Shown piece by piece: positions 2,270-60,509 of a DNA stretch of 64,000 nt. A model generated the notes under the pieces. That model searched no databases, was not told where the DNA came from, and was given only the letters and a program-made list of their open reading frames with translations. The DNA is from Sphagnum magellanicum (lineage: Eukaryota; Streptophyta; Sphagnopsida; Sphagnales; Sphagnaceae): assembly GCA_021904315.1 (NCBI GenBank), contig CM038919.1:1240001-1304000 (forward strand), read 5' to 3'. A program made the translations under genes and the position numbers. Position 1 is the first letter of the stretch; each line of letters starts with the position of its first letter.

Positions 2270-2394
2270 GAGCTTGCAACGCTTGTAGCGCTAAGAGCTT
2301 GCAACACTTGTAGCGCCAAGAGCTTGCAACGCTTGTAGCGCCAAGAGCTTGCAACGCTTGCATCGCCAAGAGCTTGCAATGCTTGCAACGCTGT
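2270..2394. repeat. 25-bp minisatellite, five units
   Basis: Five head-to-tail 25-bp units starting at 2270, 2295, 2320, 2345 and 2370, each built on 'gagcttgcaacgcttgtagc', with a degenerate half unit near 2254. It is more GC-rich than its surroundings. It sits between the CACTA-like end and the Gypsy gag region, so it probably belongs to the Gypsy 5' LTR or leader. Confidence 0.85.
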
Positions 2395-2671
2395 AACACC
2401 ATGTTGCCGTCAGCCATTGCCGCGGAGCTCACGGGTGTTCTGTGGTGCCATGACCTCCAACGTCACGTCCAATTTTCGTCTGTCCACGGACTTTTGTTGG
2501 ACTGTTATACTGTGTCCTGCATTCTGCCCATCTTACGTTTTACGTTTTGCATCCTGCGTTTTGCCGTCATGTCGTTTCATTCGACATCCATTCGTCATCA
2601 TTCATTCCCATGGACACATCGTATTCTTCAAATTGTACATTGTGTTAGAACTTTGTAGTTAGTTCTCTGTA

Positions 2672-4015
2672 TTGTTACAAAATTTTGTGGCATGGGACAA
2701 CACCATGTCCTTAGACGATGAAAGCACTACCACTCAGCTAGAGCCCAGGTATCAACTACGAAATAACACACAATCCTTTGAGCCGATTTCTTTAAGCTCA
2801 CGATCTTCACAACAGTACCATCAAGTGTCTACAACACCACCGTCATCAAATACAACTCCTACCAAGAATTCAAGTTCAGGTTGCACTACATCAATGGTAC
2901 ATCAGAGTCCATTTGGAGGGGCTCATCAGTGGGGTATGCCTATTGCCGCACCTACTTTCACACGATCATCGTATATTGCATTGTAAGTTGTGACCTCAAC
3001 ACCCATATACATCATGGAGGTCAGTAGTTCCTTTGGGTGAATTGAGAAGTTCAGCGGAAGGCTAGGTACTATTTCTTTGAAAGAGTTCAAAGCAATTTTG
3101 TCAACTGTGGTTTGTGAATTAGAACTCAAGTATGGCACTAATTACACCAAGGTGTTTGCATTCAAACAATTAGCCCGTTATGTGCACTATGAGGCATTGG
3201 ATGTTTATGAACAACATTCTGCAAGGATTTTGGGCGTCACCCAGATTCCCAATCTAGCTTACACCATAGCCATCGCCATCGCCTCTCAAGCTGCATTGCA
3301 AGTTGCAATTGCACATCATGGGACTGTGCCCAATAATCCAAACCTGGTACCTACCTCAGTAAACCTTTCTTCACAACAACTCATTGCTACTACTACAAAC
3401 ATTCCTCCCACCACCGATGCACCAACTTTTATTAATCCAGTGGGGGAATTCTTTTGAGTTTTTGAGCTAGAATTTTTAGTCAAAAGTTCTGAAAATTTTT
3501 TGTAGCTTGCCACCTTTTTTCGGCAGAAGGATGAAACCCTCAAGATGTTCAATAGGAGGCTTCTCAAACTCAAAGAGGATACCTAAAGCATCACAGACCT
3601 GGAAGCTACCCATCGGTATTTTCGTTCCTTGGAAGGTACTCCAACACTCCATGCACAAGTTTTGTAATGGGTTTTTGCAGAATTTGGAAACTCATATGCT
3701 TTACTACATGTGTACAACATTTTCGAAAAGCTAGAACTAGCTCATGCACACTATGAAGCTAGTACTATGAGGCCTCCATCACGTTCAAGGCCTTAGCCAA
3801 CACCAGTTGCACCAACTAGATCATCACATTCTTCTTCAAGGACTAAAATGATGCACTCGGTTACACCCATCCTACCTTCTTGCAACTACTGTGGCAATCC
3901 TGCCCACAAAGCTAATGAATGCAACATTCCTTCTGAGGATCTCTTTTGTGATTATTGTGGGAAAGAAAGACATCATAAATCAGTATGTTTTGCCAAGTTC
4001 CCAGAACGAAAGTAA
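2672..4015 (+). mobile_element. Gag region of the methyltransferase Gypsy element
   Basis: The translated region starts with a polar Ser/Thr/Gln-rich segment, continues with a capsid-like helical part (about 3040-3300) and ends with two zinc-knuckle-like Cys clusters near 3870-4000 ('CNYCGNPAHKANEC', then 'CDYCGKERHHKSVC'). Such knuckles bind nucleic acid in retrotransposon nucleocapsids. The solo LTR insertion follows about 90 bp downstream. Fossil. Confidence 0.75.
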
Positions 4016-4102
4016 CTCCGATTACAACGACAAAATCTGCTAACATCTTCTGCTATCCGTCAACCAAAAGCCAAGGCACTTCAGCCTTCCACTTAGGCTT
4101 TG

Positions 4103-5100
4103 TGACGCACTCCCAACTCCTTAAAGGGCTCAAATGTGAGCCCAAGTAGAAAATAGCGGAAAAGGAGGAGTCGGAGCACGCTCCTTAGCTCACAACCCTT
4201 TAAGGGGTAGAGGGGCGGGTTGGAGCTCCGGGATGGGACTAGGAAGAGTTGACAAGCTTGAGTCACTCACATGGGCCTGCACACAACCCACACAAAGTGG
4301 TTAGTGCAAAGTTGGAGCACCCTTGGTGCTAGGACGAGTCACGGGCAACACGGACACACAAGACTCACCACGGCCCGGACTTGGGGGAAGCCACCACTTT
4401 CCCCCTTATAGTATACTCTGTGACTCTCCACGGAGCCCACATCCAAATGGCTATTTTTCCCGGGACTCTCGAATGGGAGTCCCGAAATCGCGCCAAATGG
4501 GACTCTTGGGGCTTTGGAGCCCCATAACTTTGCGAGCAAACCTTCGATCGCAATGCGGTCTAAAACAAAGTTGTAGCTCTCGTCGAGAGCTTTCCAACAC
4601 TGTGTTGCACTCTTGAATCGGACGTCGGGAAGAGGTCGATTCCCGACTTTTAGTTGTTGGGAGTCAAATTGGCAGTTCGACTCCCGGCCCTTCTTTTGGC
4701 CATAACTTGTGTTTCAGATGTCCAAATGAGCAATGCGAGCCCATTTTAGACATCTACGCTCCAGGAGCTTTCCAATGATATAAAGAACGCCACAAGCCAT
4801 TGAGGTTTGACCCTTGCAATTGCTCTTTGAAGTTTTAGGAGTCCACCGGGACTCCATCTCCCCAAATGGGAGTTGCCTTGGGAGTGTGAGTGTTCACTCC
4901 CTCACACTCCCTCACACATTCTAACACTCCCGGGAGTATGTGATGTGACTCCCGGGCTTCCTCTTGCCTTAGCTCCCGGGCTTCCTCTTGGCCCACACTC
5001 TTGCAATGCCTTTGCCTTGATTCCCGGGCTTCCTTCCTCTTGGCCCGCAACCTTGCAACCCCTTAGCCTTGGTCGCGAGCCCAAAGCTAGGGTTGCGACA
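4103..5100 (+). mobile_element. Solo LTR, copy 1, with perfect 5-bp target duplication
   Basis: A 998-bp unit starting TGACGCACTCCC and ending GGTTGCGACA, flanked on both sides by CTTTG (4098-4102 and 5101-5105). TG...CA ends plus a 5-bp duplication are LTR-retrotransposon hallmarks. No internal domain is attached, so it is a solo LTR left by LTR-LTR recombination. It sits in the gag/linker region of the older Gypsy element. Homologous to 36703-37522 and, inverted, 29206-30110. Its last part has three copies of a 'CCCGGGCTTCCTCTTG' unit, which explains its greater length. Short open frames inside it are not genes. Confidence 0.92.
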
Positions 5101-6129
5101 CTTTGCCCACCAAGGGTAATTCCAACAAGAATGCTAAAAAGAAGGATCACAATGTTGACAAGAGGGAGGTGCTTCAAGCCCATGTAATTCAAGTTCAGAC
5201 TCTACAAAATGAACTCAAATAATTGAGGGCCCAATTTGCTAATTTAAAAGGCAAGTCCTCCCAACCAACTAGTCATGCCCAACCTGTACAAGATTTAGGA
5301 TCACGTGAGGGACCTCCTAGGTTATTCTATGGCCTCCCACATGATGCCATGGTTGGGGAGTATGTTCTTTCCACTCCACACAATTCTAGTCTCACACCAG
5401 AATTTGCTACTTCTTTTTGCCTTTCCTATGTCACAACACAAGAGGTTAATGTGGCACCCAAAGTTTCTGCCACTAGGCAGGTAATTCAGACTAATGGATT
5501 CGCATCTGGTTCAAGTCCTATTACCAGGGTTAGAGGAGCGTGAGTAATCATGCCACAATATTTTTGTCCTCTCAACACGGAAGAAGAACGCAACTTGTTG
5601 GCGAGGGGGGAGGAGACTACTACACCACAAGTTGTTAGGGCATCAAATTCCCGTGTCCCAGGAGTACATGTACATCAAGAAAACACATAATTTTCCATTG
5701 ATCAGCTTATGGAATGCCAACTTCAAATGCATGAAGTGGTGCAAAAGCTTGTGAGCACACCATTGTTTAGTTTTCAAGATTTGAAGCTAAGCACTAGGGA
5801 CATAATTGAAGTCCTAGAGGATACCCTGAACACTACATTAGGTCTTCTACCAATCCATGATCCACATGCTACAGAGGTCCCATCTAACACCTTAGAGAGA
5901 CATTCGATTGGCTCACGTGTTGTAGATGGCATTTATAATCTGGTCACTAGTTTTAGCATGGCAAAACTAGTGGGTTTTCCTACTTCTGATTTTACATTCA
6001 CATATCAGAAAGGAATTAAGAACACCTCGCTAGTGGATTTGCTACTCAGCAAAGGTGTTGTGGATAGCCATTTTCTCCACAAAGTCTCTCACTCATTTTT
6101 GAAGGTGGTGCCTAGTGAGAAAACTTCCA

Positions 6130-6260
6130 TCGCCACCGGAGTTGCCATTGTCGACAATACTGGGTCAGCAATCCAAGTGGGAGGACATACACCCATAGTG
6201 GTATTTCTTGACACAAGTGCCCAACTAGTGATTCTTGGAGTTTAATTCGCTAAGAAGATG
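6130..6260 (+). mobile_element. Aspartic protease segment of the Gypsy element
   Basis: Translation reads 'VVFLDTSAQLVILGV', matching the retropepsin active-site context (hydrophobic-hydrophobic-D-T/S-x-A followed by a hydrophobic strand ending in G). It lies between gag and the methyltransferase domain, as expected for Gypsy order. Fossil. Confidence 0.7.
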
Positions 6261-6769
6261 GGCATGTTTGACTCCAAACTACGGAAATCTATGTGGCAGA
6301 TTCGCACCGCTAATGGGAGCATAGAGGAGGTACTTGGGGAAAGCTCAGATTTGATTGCATGTAACTTCAATGAAGGTACAGATTAGGAGCTTTGCTTATA
6401 GGTCAAGTGTTTAATCACCAATGCCACCAGTTATGATGTGCTCATTGGGCAAGAAGCCTTGTTTCCACTTGGTTTCACAATTGATAACTGGTTCGAACAT
6501 ACATACTACCAAATGGATTGGGAGACTGATGGCCACCACCTGGGATACATACCCCTTGATTTACATGGGAACCATAGTCCTATGGTTCACCATTATATGC
6601 TCAAGGAAGCACACACCATTTCCTATATCCAACAAGATAGCCATGAGTGGATAGAGGGAGATGAAGAAGAGATAGCTTACACTCAAGCTACTAAAAGCTT
6701 GAGAGTGGTTCCTACTAACATTCAACATGGACTAGAGGTTTTGCAAAGGTTCTGTAGCCCACAAGCCCT

Positions 6770-7850
6770 TGGTCAAAGCTTTGTTTAGTTTTGAGAACAT
6801 GGAGAGCCATGGCGAACCGATTAAACCATTACTTCGTCAACTAATCACCTTGATACCACCTAAGGAAGGGATTACATTATTAGAGCTCTTTGGTGGTATT
6901 GGTACAAGTCTCGAAGCCTTATTACAGTCAGGGATGGTGGTTCGAAGGTATTTCTACATAGACATTGATCTTATTGCAAGGCAAGTGGCAACATAAAAAA
7001 TGAGGGAGTTCACAACAAGATTTCCACAACAGTTTACAACCACCGCATGGAAGGTTAGTTTCACATTTTTGCCCTTTGACATGTAACTAATTCAGAAGAA
7101 ACATATGGAATTATTTGGCCCCATTGACCTCATCATTTCAGGTTGGGAGTGTCAAGGATTTTCAACGGCTGGATTTGGAGAAGGCTTGAGTGACACAAAA
7201 TTTAATCTTTTCACGGACATGATATGACTGATCACATGGGCTCAATCCATTTCTCCTACACTTGGTTATGTAATTGAAAACACCCCTTCTCAGCTTGATC
7301 AGAGGGAGAAAGTCCAAGAGCACTACACATTGGTCAAACATTACCTTGGAGAGTTGCTCTTACTTGATGTGGCACAATGCAGTTCCTATGCCCACCAGCT
7401 GCACAACTGGTGGACCAACTTGGCACCACTCTTAGTTCTGCAGCTAGCTTTGAAATACACTATCAGAGACCCCAACCTACAGGTTTCTCACATATTGGAT
7501 GATCAAAGTTCTTGCCAACTAGTTATAAGATAAGAGAAACCTCCTTGGTTTTTTGCGAACACAATAGGAAAACCAAAATGTGCTTGGCCCACCTTTGTCT
7601 CTTTCCCAGGAGCACATGCCTTTCAAGGAGATGTACCAAGCCTGGTGTATCATCATGTTTCAGCCACTTGGGATGAACCAAGCCTAGAAGAAAAAAAAAG
7701 GGCTATGGGGTTCCAAGTTGGCACTACTAATCACACTAAGGTGACTAGATTGGAGCGTAACGCTCTACTGGGGAAAGGCATGGACCTGAATTCCTTTACA
7801 TGGTTGTTGGTAACTTGTGTAGTCTTTCAAATGTACACAACACTTGTAGT
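6770..7850 (+). mobile_element. Cytosine-5 DNA methyltransferase domain inside the Gypsy pol region
   Basis: Conserved C5-methyltransferase blocks appear in canonical order. Motif I, SAM binding: 'LLELFGGIGTSLEALLQSGM' (about 6880-6940), followed by 'YFYIDIDLIARQVA'. Motif IV, catalytic cysteine region: 'DLIISGWECQGFSTAGFG' (about 7120-7180). Motif VI: 'GYVIENTPSQ' (about 7265-7295). A motif VIII-like segment near 7390 ('SYAHQLHNWW'). Motif IX/X-like C-terminus: 'EPSLEEKKRAMGF' and 'LLGKGMDLNSFTWLL' (about 7675-7810). Such enzymes transfer a methyl group from S-adenosylmethionine to C5 of cytosine in DNA. The domain lies between protease and RT in one coding direction, so it was part of the element's polyprotein. 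Now a fossil with several breaks. The motif set is too complete and ordered to be chance. Confidence 0.87.
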
Positions 7851-8034
7851 TCTCATGATGCAACCACATGGCACCTCGACTAAGTACACTTGCTTATTTT
7901 CAACACTTTACATTTCACTCTTAGTGTTGGGGGGGAAAGAGGTACCATGTAATTTGACTCAAGTTGTGTTTAATACACCTAGAGGTACATTAGCTTCTGG
8001 AAAAATAATTACAACCTTTTACGAATCTACATAG

Positions 8035-8860
8035 TTGGATAGTGGTGAACCGAATACACCAAGTTCTTCAAACACACTTTCCAACTCCATTCCATGTGTT
8101 TCCAACTACCCATTCGTTATGGGGAACCAACTCACCAAGAAGGAGAGAGACCAGGTCACAGACTTGTTAATTAAATATGAAAATGTGTTCGCATTCTCAA
8201 TGAAAGACTTAGGTAGGTGTAAGACCATGCAATTCTCTATAGACCTTACAGATGAGACACCCGTCTATCGAAGGAGGCATAGGTTGAGCAAGCATGAGTG
8301 GGAACTAGTAGATGAAAGATGCAAAGAGCTCCATGAGGCTGGTCTCATTCAGCCATCGAAATCTGATTTCGCAGACACTATAGTAATACCAGCAAAGAAA
8401 GATTCAACTGGATTATGGACTGAGAAAAGGATGTGCGGGGATTATAAGCCTTTGAACCTAATTACACCTCAAGATAGGTACCCTATGCCCATCCCTGAAT
8501 AATTGTTTGATAGCATTGGAGATTTAAACATTTTCGCAATTGTGGATCTAAGGCAAGGTTTCAACCAGCTTGTGCTTACTGTGAAGGATCGCAAGAAAAT
8601 GACATTCCATGGAAGCAACAAGTTGTGGGAATGGCTTGTGATGCCCTTTGGATTGAAGAATTCACCTGTTTTCTTTTAGCAAGTTATGGACCAGGTTCTC
8701 GAAGGGGTAGATTTCTTGAAGTGCTACATAGATGACGTCTTAGTGCATGGCAAGGGACTCCTGCAGCATTTGGCTCATCTTGAAGAATTATTCAAGAGGC
8801 TCCACAAAGTCAATATGAAGGTCCATCTTAAAGAGTGTGAGTTTGTTGTCATTTCAATAA
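8035..8860 (+). mobile_element. Reverse transcriptase of the Gypsy element
   Basis: The translation shows the Gypsy RT lead-in ('YRRRHRLSKHEWELVDERC', 'MCGDYKPLN', 'RYPMPIPE'), a middle palm segment (about 8520-8680) and the catalytic 'YIDDVLVHG' box near 8725. These are RT motifs in usual order, directly downstream of the methyltransferase domain. Fossil. Confidence 0.92.
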
Positions 8861-9049
8861 TCTACCTTGGACATAGAATTTTACCAAATGGTATTATGGC
8901 TCATTGGGCCAAAGTAGTAGCCATTTTGGAAATGCCCAATCCTACTAATGTTCACACATTGAGGAGTTTCATCGGATTATGTAATTACTATAGATTTATG
9001 TCCAAGACTTCAGTACTATTGTTCATCCTCTCTATGCATTGTTAAAAAA

Positions 9050-9500
9050 AGATGTTGCTTGGACATGGAGTGATGAGGCTTAGGAAGCTTTCAACACACT
9101 TAAGGAAAAACTTTCAAAATTCCCCATTCTGAAAAGACTTGATTTCAACAAGGTCTTCATTCTACACACCGATTAGAGTGCTCTTGGTATTAGAGCTATT
9201 CTTGGCCAAATTGATGAAGAAGGCAAGGAATATGTTATCGCCTATGCATCTTGAAGTAACAACAAGGTTGAGAGTAACTACTTTTCATACGAGGGGGAAT
9301 GCCTTGTTGTTGTATGGGCCGTTATACATTTCAGGCCCTATCTTTATGGCACCAATTTCACTTTGTATATCGACCACCAGCCTATCAAGTGGTTGATGAC
9401 CAATGATAAACATACTGGTAAGTTAGTTCGTTGGGCGCTTATATTTCAAGAGTATGAATTCAAGGTTATTCACCGACCTGGTATTACACATCAGAATGCA
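9050..9500 (+). mobile_element. RNase H region of the Gypsy element
   Basis: Sequence after RT encodes RNase H-like blocks, including 'YIDHQPIKWLMTN' (about 9365-9405) and 'GKLVRWALIFQEYEFKVIH', the segment that precedes the integrase linker in Gypsy elements. Fossil. Confidence 0.8.
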
Positions 9501-9739
9501 AATACCATGTCATGGAGACCTCTCACTACCTCTGAAGATTTTTCAGAAGCCAGGCAAGATTTTGACCAGATTCCAAAAATACATGTATCTGATGCATCTA
9601 ATTATCTTGCACTACTGCAATGTAACCTGGTTGAACATCCCATTATGGATATATGGGAGGACTTGGACACTCTGAGGTTTCTTCAACATGGGGAATACCT
9701 TCCCCAAGTTACATCAAGTTTGCAAGATCGCGTACAATA

Positions 9740-10200
9740 ACGATCCAAACGCTATTCATGGAAAGACAATCACCTCATCTGATGTTTACCACAAGGCGAC
9801 AAAGTGGTTCCATCACCACATGAACGCCCTAGTCTTATTCAAAAGGTATACTCAAGGCTTGGACATTTTGGAGTTAAGCGTACTTATAGCCTTCTTGCTC
9901 CTCATTACCATTAGAGAGGTATGTATGTTCAAGTTTGAGACATCATTGCTAGGTGTGAACAATGTGATAGAGTGAGAACTTTTTTCTCTTCTCGATAGCT
10001 CACGCTTTCTCCACTCCCTATTTAGGGCATGTTCTATTGTTGGTCATGTGATTTAGTTAGAGAGTTACCACAAACCTCCAAGGGTAATGTTTACATCATG
10101 ATTATGATTGAGCATTTTTCAAAGTGGGTTGTATACATGAGAATTTCATCTCAGCCTCCTCTTGTGCATTGTATATATATTTGTGCGTGCATCTCTTTTT
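9740..10200 (+). mobile_element. Partial integrase of the Gypsy element
   Basis: The stretch encodes an HHCC zinc-binding-like segment (about 9910-9975) and the start of the catalytic core ('MIMIEHFSKWV', about 10100-10130). Recognisable integrase sequence then fades, so the element is truncated on its right side before any 3' LTR. Fossil. Confidence 0.7.
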
Positions 10201-10312
10201 GGTTGATTAGTTTATACCTTTGACTGACTTTAGTCTTTTTGTTAGTAAAGTTTATTACGGATTTACACCCTTATGACACCGTACGTCACGACACTACACG
10301 TCACGACAACAC

Positions 10313-18450: not shown

Positions 18451-18937
18451 AGCATCTCCACCAATGCTCAGTATGTGGCTCTTGGATGAGGTTCATTAGT
18501 AAATCCACTCCAAGAATGCTGGGACCCTGGAACAAACCACATACCCATGGAGGATCCCTGGAAGAGTGTAAAAAATCACAGACAAATTGCTCCATGTTTC
18601 TGATTGGCTAGATAGTTTGATTGGTCCCAGTGGGTTGCTATTACTAGTCTCCCACCTACTTGCAGTCCCAGTTTCAGTTTTATGGGTGGGGTTGGAAAAA
18701 AAGTCAGTAACTAAAACTTGGATGTCAGAAATATGTTTTTATGGGTTGCTCCCTGTTTCTGATTGGCTAGATAGTTTGATTGGTCCCTGTGGGTTGCCAT
18801 TACTAGTCTCCCACCTACTTGCAGTCCCAGTTTCAGTTTTATGGGTGGGGTTGGAAAAAAAAATCAGTAACTAAAACTTGGATGTGAGAAATATGTTGTT
18901 GCAGGGTTCTCTAGTACTGAGTGCAGGTGGAGATGCT
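18451..18937. mobile_element. Inverted-repeat element enclosing a duplicated unit
   Basis: The left end 'agcatctccaccaatgctca' and the right end 'gtgcaggtggagatgct' are inverted copies, giving a terminal inverted repeat of about 24 bp ending in AGCATCTCC, a common plant MITE-like terminus. Most of the interior is two head-to-tail copies of a 159-bp unit. A clear target duplication is not visible, so the superfamily is left open. Confidence 0.6.
18587..18905. repeat. Two tandem 159-bp units, nearly identical
   Basis: The units start at 18587 and 18746 and differ at only a few positions, far fewer than other repeats here, so the duplication is comparatively young. Each copy holds 'tgattggctagatagtttga' and 'cagtttcagttttatgggtg'. 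The open frame running through both copies is a by-product. Confidence 0.9.
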
Positions 18938-22594: not shown

Positions 22595-22900
22595 AGTGTT
22601 GTACTTAAATTTTTAGCTATTCTTGTTGCAAAATTTTGTGGCCCACTTTTCTTCAGTCATTTTATTTTAGTGCATATTCTTCAATCGAGTGCACATTGCA
22701 CAAAGTAGTCTAGTAGGTGACATTTTGTAAGTCTTATTTGAAAGACTTTCTTTCAGTCTGTGATTGAGCATTTTAAACTCCTGAAATTCATTTCCTCTGT
22801 TACGAGTGATTGAAAATTTTGTCTTCAAATCTGTCAGTGGCAGTTGGGCTTAGCTAGATTGTAGCTTCATTTTGCTCTGCAACAAGAAACAAATCATACC

Positions 22901-24418
22901 ATGTCTTCAACTGTGAGTGAAAATCCTGAGCACTGTGGTGACAAGGGAAGTTCTCCATCCTCACATGAGCTTGAGCTGGATATGAGTCTACAGATCCCTG
23001 TCTTTGATATGGAGGATCTGAGAAGAAGAAGAAGCAGCAGCAGCAGCAATGGGCACTGTAAGCTGGGATCTCAATTGTCAACTGCAAAAGAGGAATTGCT
23101 GAAAGCATGCAAAGAATGGGGAACTTTCCATATCGTCAATCATGCAATTCCCATGGAGGTCATCGAGAGATATCAGGCACTAATGATGAAGATCTTCTCT
23201 CTTCCTTTGGAGCACAAGCTGAAAGCTAAAAGATCACAATTCTCGGTGTTTGGATACGAATACAGACAAAATGCAGGCCCTCTTGACATTTTCCAAATTG
23301 GAGATCAAGATGCCATCATCCATTACTATGCCCGCAAATTCTTTCCAGATTCTTGCCCTTCTGAATTTTGGTAAAATTTCTCACTTTTCCTCAGATTATG
23401 CCCAGAAAAACAACCTTGCACACAATAATTCTAGGGCTTCTCTCATTCACCATCAATTCTAGTGTTTTTTTCACTCTCATTTGATCAACTTTCTCACATT
23501 CTTTGGTAAAGTCTTATTGAATGTTGTTTTTTTTTCTCGGGTGCGGTGGGCTTATAAATATTGTTGCCTCTTGTTGATACACATGCAGTGCCACTATCAA
23601 GGAGTGCAAGGAGGCTTTATGCAAACTTTCTATTGAACTATTAGACATTGTGATCGAAGGTTTGGGGATTAATCCCGATGACTTTGATGTCTACAAGAGG
23701 GATATGCAAGCAGTCCTTCGAGCAAATTACTACCACCGAACCGATAGTCAAGAGCAAGTGATTGGACTCACACCCCACATGGATGGAGGTTTCATTACTC
23801 TCTTGCTTCAAGATGATGTTGCTGGGTTGGAAGTAATGAAAGATGGAGAATGGTTTTGTGTTAAGCCTGAAAGGAATGCAATTTGCGTCCATTTTGGCGA
23901 TATGTTGGAGGTAAAACTCATCATGCATCATTCATCCCATATACACATTGCCTACTTAGTCGCTAACATTCTTAATTTGTTATATGGAGTGTACATGATC
24001 AATCTCTTCTTTATTTTCAATTATTGAAGTTGTTCAAATACATTACCCTAACCCTAAAACCTCTTTATCATCATATGTGAGTCCTTTAGCACACAAGACC
24101 AATGATTCCCATTTTGTTGTTGTTGTTGTTGTGTTTTGGGTACAATAGGTGTTCACAAATGGGCATCTCAAGAGTGTACAACACCGAAGTCTTGCACCCA
24201 CAACAAAGCCCCGACTTTCAATTGGATACTTTCTCATTCCTTTGGACACAGTGGTGATATCTGCAGCACCCGAATTTGTTGATGCAAAGTCGAACCCTCC
24301 CATGTTCAGGCCATTCAAATGGCTTGAGTATATGGAGTTGCACCGATATCTTAGGTCGGGATTAAAAGGGGTTTTCCGACCTAACCCAAGTTCACTCTTG
24401 TTTTTTCAAAGCAGCTGA
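22901..24418 (+). CDS. 2-oxoglutarate/Fe(II)-dependent oxygenase, plant DOXC type
   Basis: Three exons: 22901-23370, 23589-23910 and 24149-24418, with GT...AG introns of 218 and 238 bp and frame kept across both joins; 353 residues. The N-terminal DIOX_N region starts at the 'IPVFDME' strand (about residue 31), with 'CKEWGTFHIVNHAIP' following. The catalytic C-terminal jelly-roll has 'NYY' (203-205), the iron triad H220-x-D222 ('TPHMDGG') and H276 ('SVQHRS'), and the co-substrate binding R286-x-S288 ('RLSIGYF'). All key residues are present, so the enzyme is probably active, coupling 2-oxoglutarate decarboxylation to oxidation of a small molecule in the cytosol. Relatives include gibberellin, auxin and flavonoid oxidases; the substrate cannot be read from sequence. 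An AGA/AGC trinucleotide run near residues 40-51 gives an Arg then Ser stretch, unusual for the family. TATA box and leader lie upstream. First ATG in frame used. Confidence 0.92.
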
Positions 24419-29205: not shown

Positions 29206-30110
29206 TATCACGACCCTTGCCTTGGGCTCGTGACAAAGGTGAGGGCTTGCAAAGGTGCGAATCAAAAGTGAAGCTTGGGAGTCACATTTTATGCTCCCGA
29301 GAGTGCAGGAGGGTGTGAGGGAATGAACCCACACACTCCAAAGTGGGCTCTCACTTTGGGAGTTGGAGTCTTAATGGACTTTTGAATCTTCAAAAAACAA
29401 TTGTAAGGGTCAAAACCTTTTTTTTGGAAGAGTTTTTTATACCATTGAAAAGTTCTTGAAACGTAAATGTCTAAAATTAGGCCCACGCATCACATTTGAG
29501 TACTTAAAACACAAGTTATGGCCGAAAGAAGGGCCAAGGATCAAAGTGTCAATTTGACTCCTGACCACTAAAAATTGGGAATTGCCCCAATTTACTTACC
29601 TGCAAGTGGTTTATTACTTAGTGCCACATATTGTTGGAATGCTCTCAATGAGAGTTCTAACTTTACTTTAGACCTCATTTCAATTGGATGCCTACATAAA
29701 AAATTATGGACCTCTAAAGTCACGAAAGTCCCAACTTGGGAATCCCCGGACAAAATGACATTTGAATGTAGCCCCATGGCTAATCACAAATAATACTGTA
29801 AGCGAGAAGGTGGTGGCTTCCCCGAAGTCCGGGCCATGGTGAGTCTTGTGAGTTCGTGTATGCCCGTGGTTCATCTATGCACCAAAAATGTTCCAATTAT
29901 ACACTAACCAACTTGTTGTTTGGTTTGTGCAAGTTCATGTGAACAATTGACTCGTTTGTCACTTGTCCTAGTCCCCATCCTGGAGCTCTAACACACCCCT
30001 CTACCTCCAAAGGGTTACAAGTTAAGGAGCGTACTTCAATTCCTTTTCCTACCATTGTTTTCACCTTTGGACTCATAGTTGAATTTATCAAGGAGTTTGG
30101 GGGTGCATCA
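29206..30110 (-). mobile_element. Solo LTR, copy 3 (inverted, most decayed)
   Basis: About 905 bp aligning in inverted orientation to the 998-bp solo LTR at 4103-5100, ending on the right with '...ggggtgcatca', the counterpart of the TGACGCACTCCC start. The left end 'tatcacgaccc' corresponds to TGTCGCAACCC with CpG/TpG decay. Flanks 'cactt' and 'cattc' could be an eroded 5-bp duplication but differ at two positions. CpG loss marks it as the oldest of the three copies. Confidence 0.8.
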
Positions 30111-30133
30111 CATTCTATTGTCTACAATCAATT

Positions 30134-36800: not shown

Positions 36801-37690
36801 TAAAAGGGGGTAGAAGGGCGTGCTAGAAGTCCTGGGATTAAACTAGAAAGAGGGACTAGATTATCAAGCTCAAATCTGCATCCAAAACCAACCACAAGAG
36901 GGTTAGTTAGCATTCGGGAACACCCTTGGGTGTTGGGACAAGCCACGGGCACTTTGACACACAAGACTCACAACGGCCCGGACTCAGGGGAAGCCACCAC
37001 CTTCCCCCATATAGTATACTCTGCAGCTCTCCGCCGAGGCTACATCCAAATGGCTCTTTTTCCCGGGACTCCCAAGTTAGAGTCCCGAAATTGTCCCAGG
37101 TTGGAGTCCCGGGACTTTGGACGCTCATAGCTCCTCGCCCCAAACTCGGATCGGGACGAGGTTTGAACCAAAGTTGTAGCTCTCGTTGAGAGCTTTGTAA
37201 CGCCGTGTCACACTCCTTGAGGCGACGTCAGGAAGAGGTCGATTCCTGACGTTTAGTGGTCGGGAGTCAAACTGGCAGTTTGACTCCTGGCCCTTCTTTT
37301 GCCCATAACTTGGGCTGCAGATGTCCAAATGGCCCATGAGAGTCCATTTTGGGCATCTACGCTTCAAGACCTTTTCATTGATATAAGGAACGCACCAAGG
37401 CAAGGAGATTTGACCCCTCAAATCGTCTTCTGAATTTTTGGGAGTCTCGGAGGACTCCATTTTCCCACTTTTGGGAGTGTGAGTTGCATTCTCACACTTA
37501 GCCCCAAAGTGGGGTTGCAACATGCCACATCTAATGATGCTGCCTTTCGATTCCAGCAAAGCACAAACCCATTCCGGATCTGCATCCCTATTCAATATGC
37601 ATGGAAATGAGGAACAAAGTGAAAGTGAGAAGATGGAAGTGGGTTCAATAGTCACACCGAAAGTGCAACCTATTGAATCGAAATAATTTC
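33850..37690 (+). mobile_element. Coding-like region downstream of the second Gypsy integrase (fossil)
   Basis: After an interval of about 650 bp, long stretches keep a coding look on the plus strand: an acidic/basic start (about 33870-33990), a segment 'VKEFLQAITQFNPK' (about 34140-34180), a Gly/Cys-containing segment (about 34347-34560), and helical Lys/Glu-rich segments (about 36430-36680). It resumes after the solo LTR at 36703-37522 and ends near 37687. Some plant Gypsy lineages carry an extra ORF after integrase (env-like or of unknown role); this could be such an ORF or the gag of a neighbouring element. It is broken many times. No family recognised. Confidence 0.45.
36703..37522 (+). 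mobile_element. Solo LTR, copy 2, with perfect 5-bp target duplication
   Basis: 820 bp from TGACGCACTCCC to GGGGTTGCAACA, flanked on both sides by TGCCA (36698-36702 and 37523-37527). Homologous to 4103-5100 and 29206-30110. It lacks the repeated CCCGGGCTTCC units of copy 1. It is inserted in the coding-like region downstream of the second Gypsy integrase, so it is younger than that element. Confidence 0.92.
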
Positions 37691-44889: not shown

Positions 44890-45769
44890 ATAAGATTATA
44901 TATTTTTCACTTTTTGTTATTTTAATCTTTTATTGGGAAATTTTTGTAATTTTTATTGATAAAATTTCGTGTTAAAAAAAAATCAAGCTTTTGACAATTG
45001 GTATGTGAAAACCAGCTGATATGAAATGTGTGTGAGAATTGGCACTTTGGGAACTGGGCAAAATTGTTTTTCTCAAAATTTTGAAACCTTGCACAAGTCT
45101 CTTGCAGGCGAAAAAAATAAAAGAAAAACCTATGGCTAGTCTTACATTCTCTTCTAAAACTCAGACATAACAGATTTCAGAAAAACCAGAGAATCGCCCA
45201 TCACTGAAAAATTCTTTGATTTGTTTCAGAATTGATGATTCAAGGTTGTTTGTTTGATTTTATGAGAGTCCCCAATCAAGGGTCCATATACCCAACCTTA
45301 ACCTGCCAGTTCTTTTCTTTGGGTGCTGAAAGAGAGAGAGAGAGAGAACTGCCCCACAAGTAATTAGATTAGTGTTGATCAGTTTCAGCATCTTGACTGG
45401 TTATTCAAGTGCAATCTCTGAATTGGGTCTCTAGTATGGAATACCTAGACTACATTCATTGACCATATGGGAACATTGGGACTGGAATCAGACTTGAACC
45501 CTAGAACCAACAATACCATAGCCCCTTGCCCAAGTACCCAAGATGTGTAGGCAGTGTGTTAGCTAAGGTGCCCAGGTGGGCATGGGCCACAAATTTTCGG
45601 GCTGCCCTGCCCGATGAAATGGTTTAACCTCTTGGGACATATTGCCTATGTTGCTTCCATGCAACATGAGTTATAACTTATGAGTTATGATATGACCAAC
45701 ATGGGTGGCAAACACTAGATCTAAGTTGCCCTCGCAACAAGCACAGGTTTTTTTTGGGTTTTTGTTTTC
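44890..45769. other. Intergenic stretch, possibly the body of a Helitron-like element
   Basis: No gene recognised. A (GA)n microsatellite lies at about 45330-45347. GC-rich words ('gcccaggtgggcatgggcc', 'cgggctgccctgcccga') near 45565-45620 may belong to the Helitron-like element whose 3' end is at 46170. Confidence 0.4.
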
Positions 45770-45773
45770 TGTG

Positions 45774-46125
45774 TCAGTTAAATTGCTCGGACCCTTTTTT
45801 TTTTTTTTTTTTTGAGGTTTTGTTTTCTTTTTCAGTTAAATTGCCCGGACCTTTTTTTTTTTTTTTTGGGTTTTGTTTTCTGTGTTAGTTAAATTGCCCG
45901 GACCTTTGTTTTTTTTTTGGGGTTTTGTTTTCTGTGTGTGTCAGTTAAATTGCCCGGACCTTTTTTTTTTTGGGTTTTTGTTTTCTGTGTGTGTCAGTTA
46001 AATTGCCCGGACCTTTTTTTTTTTGGGTTTTGTTTTCTGTGTCAGTTAAACTGCCCGGACCTTTTTTTTTTTTTTTTTGATGGATTTTGTTTTCTGTGTC
46101 GGTTAAACTGCCCGGACCTTTTGTT
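45774..46125. repeat. ~54-bp minisatellite with long poly-T tracts, seven units
   Basis: The anchor 'ttaaattgcccggacc' occurs seven times (cores at 45785, 45843, 45896, 45952, 46005, 46053, 46110) at 48-58 bp spacing. Each is followed by a run of 9-21 T and then 'gggttttgttttctgtgt'. Length variation comes mainly from the T runs and a GT dinucleotide insertion. The Phe/Cys-rich open frame across it is an artefact. Confidence 0.92.
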
Positions 46126-46170
46126 TTTTTTTTTGCTCGACGGGTGCATTATGCACCGGGTTCACACTAG
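46110..46170 (+). mobile_element. Helitron-like 3' terminus
   Basis: A short palindrome 'ggtgcattatgcacc' (46143-46157) is followed nine bases later by CTAG (46167-46170) and then T. Plant Helitrons end in a hairpin about 10 bases before CTRR and insert between A and T, so the layout fits. The minisatellite directly upstream fits a non-autonomous copy. No Rep/helicase gene and no TC-type 5' end were identified. Confidence 0.6.
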
Positions 46171-48809: not shown

Positions 48810-50354
48810 ATGGCGCGGACGTTCATCGCATTCCTAAGAGCAGTTTGCAGTGCGTACTCGATGATGGTACTAGTATTTGTGTTTTTGCCAGCAATCGCCA
48901 GTGGCGCGGTACTAGACACGGGGCCCTGGGAGCAAGCGCATGCTACATTCTATGGCGGTAGCGACGCCTCTGGAACAATGGGTATGTAGCTGATCTTATA
49001 CTACCATCTGACGTGATCTGCAGCTCTCGACGATGATGTTAGAATCTTCTTATGCTGATTAGATGATGATGACCTGATCTCATGTCTACATCTGGTTTTC
49101 TGGAATCCTGCAGGTGGTGCGTGTGGATATGGGAATCTATACACTGAAGGATACGGCACCAACACAGCAGCCTTGAGCACCGTCCTGTTCAACAACGGAG
49201 TCAGTTGTGGAGCTTGCTTCGAGCTCCAATGCTACGGGAGCAAATGGTGCTTGTCTTCCTATAAAGCCGTCACCATCACTGCCACCAACTTCTGTCCACC
49301 CAACCTCGCGGAACCCAGCGATAACGGAGGATGGTGCAATGTCCCTAGACCTCACTTCGACATGGCCATGCCTGCTTTCCTGCAGATGGCGCAGTATGTC
49401 GGCGGCATTGTCCCTGTCAACTACAGAAGGTAGGTCTATCGTTTGTTTCTTCGGACATCCTTCCATTAGGCTGCTGTTATCACAACACATCTTTCCGTTA
49501 ATTAATTTGTTCCAGTTACCTGCAACTCGCAAATGGAAAGCACCTCAGTCCATCTAGCAAGAAACAAAGCCCTTTGTCAGTGGCTTTCCATTAGACTGCT
49601 GTGATCAAAGCACACTGTGTGTAAACAAACCCCTATGTCAGTGGCTTTCCATTGGGTTGCTTGCTGTGATAAGAACACACCGTCCGTGTGTCCGGGTTCT
49701 CAGAGTTCCTAGCATTGATTAACTACATACTTTTAACACATGTGCAACTCTCAACTGGAAAGCACCTCAGTCCATCTAGCAAGATTCAAAGCCCTTTGTC
49801 AGTGGCTTTCCATTAGACTGCTGTGATCAAAGCACACTGTGTGTAAACAAACCCCTATGTCAGTGGCTTTCCATTGGGTTGCTTGCTGTGATAGGAGCAC
49901 ATGGTTCGTGTGTACCTGTGATCACAGCAGCCTAATGAAAAGAGACCCTTTTAGTCTGACGAACATTCACGAATTCTGTGGCAGCTGATAGACGATTGTA
50001 GTACATAAATTTGACGATCGTTGTACATGTATGCTTCTTTGCAGGGTTCCATGCATCAAGAGTGGAGGGATCCGGTTCACCATCAATGGGAATCCCTGGT
50101 TCGACTTGGTACTGGTGACCAACGTGGCTGGCGCCGGAGACGTGACGGCGGTTTCCATCCGGGGGGGAACAGGTGCGTGGATTCAGATGACACGCAATTG
50201 GGGTCAGAACTGGCAATCCGGCGCTAACTTGGTGGGCAAGCCCTTGTCGTTCATCGTCACCACCAGCGACGGCCGACATGTGGTGTCCACAAATGCCGCC
50301 CCATCCAACTGGAAATTCGGACAAACGTTCGAAGGCTCTCAATTCTCCGTCTAA
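48810..50354 (+). CDS. EXPA: Alpha-expansin
   Basis: Three exons: 48810-48981, 49114-49429 and 50045-50354, with GT...AG introns of 132 and 615 bp and frame kept; 265 residues, usual for the family. Residues 1 to about 32 are a signal peptide with a hydrophobic core ([12 protein letters not shown]), so the protein is secreted to the cell wall. The mature start '[11 protein letters not shown]' leads into the six-stranded double-psi barrel with the expected cysteines, 'GGACGYGN' (58-65) and the HFD motif (138-140, '[11 protein letters not shown]'). The C-terminal cellulose-binding domain (about 175-265) has the conserved Trp residues ('[16 protein letters not shown]'). 'CGACFELQC' and 'NFCPPN' place it in the alpha group. 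Expansins loosen walls at acid pH without hydrolysis during growth. The gene looks intact. Intron 2 contains a duplicated dispersed repeat. The ATG was chosen because the signal peptide follows directly. Confidence 0.96.
49522..49965. repeat. 222-bp tandem duplication in expansin intron 2
   Basis: Two near-identical units start at 49522 and 49744 ('gcaactc...ctggaaagcacctcag'). Each has two internal copies of 'gtcagtggctttccatt' followed by 'gctgtgat'. The array ends in 'gatcacagcagcctaatgaa'. The same repeat family lies upstream of the oxygenase gene (22019-22231), and a short piece ('tttccattgcgcaattgtga') sits after the expansin stop codon at about 50378. Confidence 0.9.
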
Positions 50355-59983: not shown

Positions 59984-60480
59984 TTGATGACTCACAAGGA
60001 TTGACATTGAACAATTTTTCCGTTTGTGAAGTTGAAAAGGATTGATACATGTTTGTTTTTTAAGCTTTCTAACTACTGAGGACTCTAAGTGTGTTGTTGG
60101 TGAATTATTTTAACATTTGTGAATTCAAAGGGCTAGTGCATGTTTATTTGTGAAGCATTGTGGATTGTTGAGGATTCCAAATGTCTTATTGGTGAGTAAT
60201 TTTGACATTTGTGAATTCACAAGGAATGATTTGCATGTTTTTATGAAGCATTGTGGACAATTGAGGACTCCAATTATGTTGTCGGTGATTAATTTTGACA
60301 TTTGTGAACTTATAAGGAATGATGCATGTCTATGTGAAGCATTGTGGACAATTGAGGACTCCAACTGTGTCGATGGTGACTAATTTTGACATCTATGAAG
60401 TCAAAAGGACTAATGCACGTTTATTTGTGAAGCATAGTGGACTGCTAAGGATTCCAAGTGTCTTGGTGGTGAGTAAATTT
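59984..60480. repeat. ~92-bp tandem array, about five to six units
   Basis: Anchors 'gaggactc/gaggattcc' lie at 60081, 60173, 60266, 60357 and 60450 (spacings 91-93), with a more decayed unit from about 59987. Each unit carries 'taattttgacatttgtgaa', 'gaatgatgcatg' and 'gaagcattgtgga'. Units differ by roughly 15-25 percent by eye. Lies within the putative intron. Confidence 0.88.
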
Positions 60481-60509
60481 AACCTATATAACAAATCAAA
60501 GGTGATTCC

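Follow-up and report, generated by a model that had tools for sequence, protein, structure and literature searches.

Retrotransposons that encode their own C5 cytosine DNA methyltransferase (MTase) were described by de Mendoza et al. (2018; PMC5890265), whose accessible text presents SymbioDIRS-Dnmt3 and SymbioLINE-Dnmt from Symbiodinium and KnitGypsy-Dnmt3 from Klebsormidium nitens; these are the dinoflagellate and charophyte cases to which a sequence-only reading of the DNA studied here had pointed. KnitGypsy-Dnmt3 carries an unrearranged MTase related to Dnmt3 in its Gypsy Pol, combines Gypsy domains with repeats as in DIRS (Fig. 4 legend), and has an MTase under selection (Ka/Ks <0.2). The SymbioDIRS elements have the A-coding-B-A-B repeats of the DIRS type. 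According to the same accessible text, two SymbioDIRS MTases gave CG methylation in yeast, and the authors proposed that cDNA is methylated; the KnitGypsy MTase gave no methylation, a result that they called inconclusive because DNMT3B failed too. Plant chromoviruses, in the accessible part of a survey (PMC6317226), carry a chromodomain, which reads chromatin, at the C-terminal end of their integrase. As to land plants, an opinion article (PMC6338049) states in its accessible part that land plants, such as tracheophytes, lack MTase-bearing transposons, and in the accessible text of PMC12344493 the only cases cited are the earlier ones from streptophytes and dinoflagellates. No MTase-bearing retrotransposon of a land plant was found in the open-licence literature, including the accessible text of PMC5890265, PMC12344493, PMC6338049, PMC6317226, PMC10952607, PMC9289625 and PMC9946827, which is weak evidence of absence.

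The window, by which we mean the whole stretch of 64,000 nucleotides that was analysed (C13:1240001-1304000), belongs to a Sphagnum magellanicum genome of 438,994,042 bases in 31 contigs. MIR166, which we take to mark land plants, gave four matches above the Rfam gathering score in this genome and none in 14 control genomes. This points to a land-plant host and supports the land-plant occurrence raised in the sequence-only reading. The window also contains tandem or near-tandem repeats at 101-517 (AT-rich, with a 15/30-base step), 18587-18900, 45748-46135, 49521-49913 and 60008-60489, and, at 22865-24027 (+), open frames that by eye resemble exons of a 2-oxoglutarate-dependent oxygenase gene.

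An own-genome search with the MTase of a relative copy (L009) as query located a C5 cytosine MTase domain at 6865-7815 (+) of the window (C13:1246865-1247815; frame 5602+3n), matched over query 1-317. It lies in a decayed copy of a Ty3/Gypsy element, family 1, that was traced by blastn with copies L012 and L017 over 2381-10308 (+); its 5' limit is uncertain, no A repeat having been detected, and its 3' limit is the end of the B repeat, CACGACA, at 10308. Upstream of the domain, the protease active-site stretch VVFLDTSAQLV was read in frame 2 at 6198-6230 (+) by translation, the protease domain itself being detected in L009. Downstream, and in the same frame 3 as the MTase, are remains of the reverse transcriptase (RT) at 8038-9042 (+), with stops at 8500 and 8677 and an RVT_1 match of 2.7e-08 in 8680-9042. 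RNase H follows, again in frame 2, at 9255-9737 (+; RT_RNaseH, 2.1e-19), and then remains reaching the integrase core at 9741-10131 (+; 5' limit approximate). The alignment to L012 ends there at L012 base 7444 and resumes in the terminal B repeat at 10132-10308 (+), which is 86.7% identical to B2 and 85.5% to B1 of L012. A deletion thus joins the integrase core to the B repeat, and the remainder of the integrase, the PHD finger and the repeat that should follow are gone. Inserted into the gag part is a TG..CA block of 998 bp (4103-5100, no strand assigned), which appeared as a gap in the alignment to L012 and has CTTTG on both sides (4098-4102 and 5101-5105); it probably represents a solo LTR of another element. 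Blocks similar to it, each of ~0.7-1 kb and 70-76% identical, occur at 29270-30112 (-) and 36807-37498 (+). CG depletion did not mark out the element, with values of 0.28 inside it and 0.29 in the rest of the window.

With stops written as X, the window MTase matched PF00145 at 3.6e-06 and 27.1 bits, above the curated cut-off of 22, and the stop-free piece 7087-7224 alone reached 25 bits (1.6e-05); Pfam gave no match for the protease or the first MTase pieces of this copy when they were searched in isolation. Among solved structures, DNMT3A was the nearest to the window copy (7.6e-05). Motifs I to X occur in canonical order, including motif IV, IISGWECQGFS, at 7132-7164 (+), in which Glu precedes the catalytic-type Cys. 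The claim of the sequence-only reading, a C5 MTase with ordered motifs between the protease and RT of a Ty3/Gypsy element in one coding direction, thus stood, as did its expected PF00145 match. That reading did not mention that the MTase has four in-frame stops (6994, 7084, 7225 and 7531) and no longer has its motif VIII arginines (HQLHNWW), nor the gag insertion and the 3' deletion. Judged from its sequence, the window copy is dead and would be unable to make an intact enzyme.

The L009 MTase query returned at least 126 matches in the 439-Mb genome (125 scored of 1056 first-look candidates); identities of the listed matches to L009 ran from 100% down to 79%, with the window copy at 87%, and among the matches listed 10/126 spanned query 1-317 without a stop. 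With an E-value limit of 1e-3, PF00145 was matched at least 124 times across the whole genome, in frames of up to 2379 aa (387 candidates, of which 123 were scored). Some of these matches are host genes: three loci (L028-L030) with DRM-type exons and one (L031) with a MET1/DNMT1-like exon, the types being assigned by eye. L009 has a natural, uninterrupted frame of 2379 aa in the order protease, MTase, RT, RNase H, integrase and PHD finger, as determined with Pfam on five overlapping pieces, which matched an aspartyl protease (5e-07), PF00145 (3.5e-09), RVT_1, RNase H, Integrase_H2C2, rve and a C-terminal PHD finger (5.9e-12). The Ty3/Gypsy succession of protease, RT, RNase H and DDE integrase was found in the five pieces of L009, and its RNase H-integrase part in L025, a copy of a second family. 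Tyrosine recombinase (PF00589) was absent from the scanned pieces of L009, L025 and the metagenomic relative L047, in which rve was present instead.

The copies have an unusual repeat arrangement. L012 consists of A1 (130-440), the coding part, B1 (8347-8524), a GC dinucleotide, A2 (8527-8837) and B2 (8838-9015). The element ends are TGTCATG and CGACA (TG..CA), and from these end sequences and the order of A and B in L012 the inner B1-GC-A2 junction can be read as two outer ends fused back to back. Among 17 family-1 tails, nine had B1-A2-B2, seven had a single B, and L032 was rearranged after A2; L025 has the same A-coding-B-A-B plan with a spacer ahead of B2, so that the DIRS-type plan was found in 9/17 family-1 copies and in L025. 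Tail structures differ among copies in other ways also, with an inverted A piece after the B repeat of L020 (~8652-8927) and an inverted piece of the coding part after A2 of L032 (~9358-9484). All four copies in which both outer ends were read are flanked by a 4-bp duplication: CAGC in L012, ATAT in L024, GGTT in L019 (a single-B form) and TTTC in L025. This count leaves aside L032, whose 3' end is rearranged, L026, L027 and copies running beyond the fetched stretch. The TG..CA ends and the 4-bp duplications of these four copies agree with the Ty3/Gypsy standard, but the repeats are of the form A-coding-B-A-B or A-coding-B rather than two plain LTRs. A DIRS-like repeat plan is here served by a predicted DDE integrase.

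Family 2 comprises four places with 95-100% identity, found in a search that scored 120 of 1122 candidates. Beyond it, the same search gave at least 20 matches at 59-65% identity, 19 of the 20 with stops, and, by our own count, at least 19 further matches at 39-52% away from the family-1 places, which suggests older, mostly broken subfamilies. Between family 1 (L009) and family 2 (L025), identity was 35% in the protease, 42% in the MTase, 48% in RT, 70% in RNase H, 60% in integrase and 31% in the PHD finger. A scan of prokaryote genomes matched 26 stretches, with four relatives of which one was close, contig CADCWO010000201.1 (L035/L047). This contig of 9285 bases is filed under the 'Synechococcales cyanobacterium AVDCRST_MAG81' bin, AVDCRST presumably standing for desert soil crust, and closes on itself through an exact overlap of 127 bp. 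MTase, RT, RNase H, integrase and PHD finger are all present on it. Pfam scores for a protease (20.9 of 24.3 bits) and a zinc knuckle (17.1 of 20.8 bits) stayed below the cut-offs, but the protease aligned to that of family 1 with 39% identity (1.4e-27). L047 is nearer to family 2 (RT 67.5%, MTase 50%) than to family 1 (RT 50%, MTase 45%), and the domain order is common to both families and this 9.3-kb contig. We read it as a putative eukaryotic element in a contaminated bin of a public bacterial genome, and as a second occurrence of the lineage. Viral contigs yielded one distant MTase only, on one contig found twice, and a tblastn search of phages yielded 87 weak records, the 20 listed ones being 22-28% identical and none of the 87 reaching 80% query coverage.

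In the three family-2 copies that were read (L025, L026 and L027), MTase and RT share one frame and are parted by TAG-CAA-CTA, whose 15-base flanks are the same in all three; the separator in L047 is TAG-CAA-TCA. In both, UAG and all six following bases fit UAG-CARYYA, which in the accessible text of PMC4132726 is the readthrough context of TMV and other plant viruses and which, as a type, is mentioned for a retrotransposon in that of PMC3441728. At equal base use, CARYYA would follow a stop by chance in 1 of 512 cases; the near-identical family-2 copies were counted as one case and L047 as an independent one. A search with the TAG spelled out gave four places, three exact and one, the fourth family-2 place, with a single mismatch. 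L025 and L026 are not intact because of further stops in the Pol frame. The context is absent from family 1, in which L009 has a sense codon at that place. The TAG at 8032 of the window was considered as a leaky stop and ruled out, because TTG GAT follows it and the corresponding codon of L009 is a sense codon.

The explanation that we favour, with somewhat better than even confidence, is a land-plant Ty3/Gypsy lineage whose Pol has a PHD finger behind the integrase and, between protease and RT, a Dnmt3-like MTase that would mark the element's own cDNA. In its favour are the open frame of L009, the at least 126 MTase matches with ten full-length stop-free ones, the pN/pS of the MTase beside those of RT, integrase and PHD finger, the invariant catalytic motifs, the DNMT3A match, the PHD finger in all fetched copies and L047, the leaky-stop contexts, the repeats with their 4-bp duplications, and the CG methylation by SymbioDIRS MTases in yeast. 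The MTase would travel inside the particle and methylate the new cDNA around integration, the PHD finger would tie the integrase to the histone H3 tail, and the new copy would enter chromatin with a host-like mark already on it, so as to be tolerated and not sensed as foreign. With the leaky stop of family 2 and L047, most chains would end after the MTase, mostly without integrase and PHD finger, and the MTase would therefore be made at a Gag-like and not a Pol-like dose. The context in these two favours an MTase supplied at Gag dose in the particle. That cDNA is where the MTase acts is a part of this explanation to which we give slightly less than even confidence, and points against the explanation as a whole come from family 1, which lacks Pro before the catalytic Cys, has ENT for ENV and has no leaky stop, as well as from the failure of the KnitGypsy MTase to methylate in yeast, from the similar pN/pS of dead copies, and from a CG depletion no stronger in the element than around it. 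More tentatively, and on balance doubtfully, a streptophyte Gypsy lineage may have been kept from algae to mosses that combines a writer, the C5 MTase at Gag-like dose through a leaky UAG, with a reader, the PHD finger on the integrase, and inserts copies that are methylated from birth.

A different site of action would be the insertion site, or host DNA in trans, where an MTase guided by the PHD finger would seed heterochromatin round new copies and would not act on cDNA. The PHD finger was present in 17/17 fetched family-1 copies (L009-L024 and L032; that of L017 has a stop) and 3/3 family-2 copies (L025-L027), that is, in 20/20 fetched copies, and in contig L047. Its nearest solved relatives were KMT2D, KMT2C, KDM5-type proteins and WSTF, with ATXR5 lower down, and that these closest fingers are histone readers fits such guidance, as does the presence of MTase and integrase on one chain in family 1 (L009). 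With the leaky stop of family 2 and L047, however, integrase and PHD finger would be missing from most MTase chains, and we regard this site of action as rather unlikely.

The origin of the MTase is a separate question. A profile of 11 open MTases (eight of family 1 and three of family 2) matched DNMT3A best among solved structures (1.1e-15), followed by DNMT3B and 3C, DRM, HhaI and HaeIII, with 60.7 bits for DNMT3A, 38.6 for DRM and 30.1 for HhaI; AlphaFold2 on the same alignment gave an unusable model (mean pLDDT 46.4). The motif order of the element MTase, I to X, is unlike the rearranged order of plant DRM. In the tree placement that the sequence-only reading had called for, the element MTases split off from the rest with SH-aLRT/ultrafast bootstrap values of 61.6/69 (10 sequences) and 94.5/94 (13 sequences), DNMT3A with DRM (84/81) and the bacterial enzymes both falling outside them; these small trees left the tie to DNMT3 open. 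Family 2 and L047 were joined weakly (45.8/55 with 10 sequences and 71.5/66 with 13). Descent from a Dcm-type enzyme of bacteria or viruses, rather than from a host Dnmt3, is compatible with these trees, and the sole NCBIfam match was dcm, below its cut-off. The profile scores and the DNMT3-like motif VIII, AHRxRxxWxNL, argue against such descent, which we consider improbable. The bacterial sequences were picked by the motif GWPCQG, and their likeness at that motif is therefore a selection effect.

The enzyme motifs bear on whether the domain methylates DNA at all. PF00145 matched 11/11 open relatives (best 6.5e-14), and motif I FGGI, the motif IV Cys, E-N of motif VI, AHRxR and WWTNLAP were identical in all 11 aligned MTases. 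Family 1 has WECQGFS and ENT, with Glu and Thr in the places where family 2 and L047, with WPCQGHS and ENV, have kept the motif IV Pro and the motif VI Val. Glu-Cys was found in 21/21 family-1 sequences, dead ones included, which bears out the suggestion that WECQGFS is a feature of this subfamily. Pooled pairwise pN/pS among open copies, with a codon bootstrap and pairs that are not independent, was 0.23 for the MTase (95% 0.15-0.35; 9/21 sequences open), 0.30 for RT (13/20), 0.33 for RNase H (14/18), 0.19 for integrase (9/18), 0.13 for the PHD finger (16/17), 0.37 for the protease (11/20) and 0.57 for part of gag (9/19). Copies with stops gave 0.40 for the MTase (n=5), 0.31 for RT (n=4) and 0.26 for integrase (n=4); as the values of dead copies are similar, the ratios mainly reflect the selection that acted on the lineage before a copy was inserted. 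By these ratios the MTase is under selection, with a pN/pS like that of RT and integrase. The domain might be kept, above all in family 1, to methylate RNA, to bind nucleic acids or to serve a structural purpose. The Glu-Cys and ENT of family 1 would suit such a role, as would the silence of the KnitGypsy MTase in yeast, and RNA methylation is raised for the LINE type in the accessible text of PMC5890265. Set against this are the catalytic Cys, E-N and AHRxR, invariant in 11/11, and the PC and ENV retained by family 2 and L047; we judge a role other than DNA methylation unlikely. Lastly, a host MTase gene flanked by separate insertions of unrelated Gypsy pieces, which the sequence-only reading had named as the outcome that would overturn it and with which the stops and frame changes of the window copy alone would be compatible, has a negligible probability, being refuted by the single open frame over all domains in L009 and opposed by the at least 126 MTase matches in the genome and by the host DRM exons (L028-L030), in which, by eye, late motifs lie ahead of motif I, as they do not in the element.

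Compared with known systems, the favoured lineage is of a general kind already known, since a Pol-borne Dnmt3 with DIRS-like repeats was published for Klebsormidium in 2018. No land-plant case, PHD finger, leaky-stop context or Glu-Cys active site in such an element was found in the accessible text of the open-licence literature searched. What the moss genome adds is many MTase-bearing elements in one land plant with an enzyme under selection, and in addition a leaky-stop context and a PHD finger, both open to ordinary assays, that bear on the site of action of the MTase, which is called unclear in the accessible text of PMC5890265. Compared by description only, the moss elements differ from KnitGypsy-Dnmt3 in their land-plant host, at least two families, at least 126 MTase matches, the leaky UAG of family 2 and the Glu-Cys of family 1, and also in their PHD finger, the term 'PHD' being absent from the accessible text of PMC5890265. 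The Symbiodinium elements share with them a retrotransposon-encoded C5 MTase but belong to the DIRS (tyrosine recombinase) and LINE types, whereas the moss element has a DDE integrase and 4-bp duplications. Relative to plant chromoviruses, a PHD finger takes the place of the chromodomain; neither 'PHD' nor 'methyltransferase' occurs in the accessible text of the survey PMC6317226. The putative readthrough signal has the same stop and six following bases as that of tobamoviruses and differs in lying between the MTase and RT of a Gypsy element.
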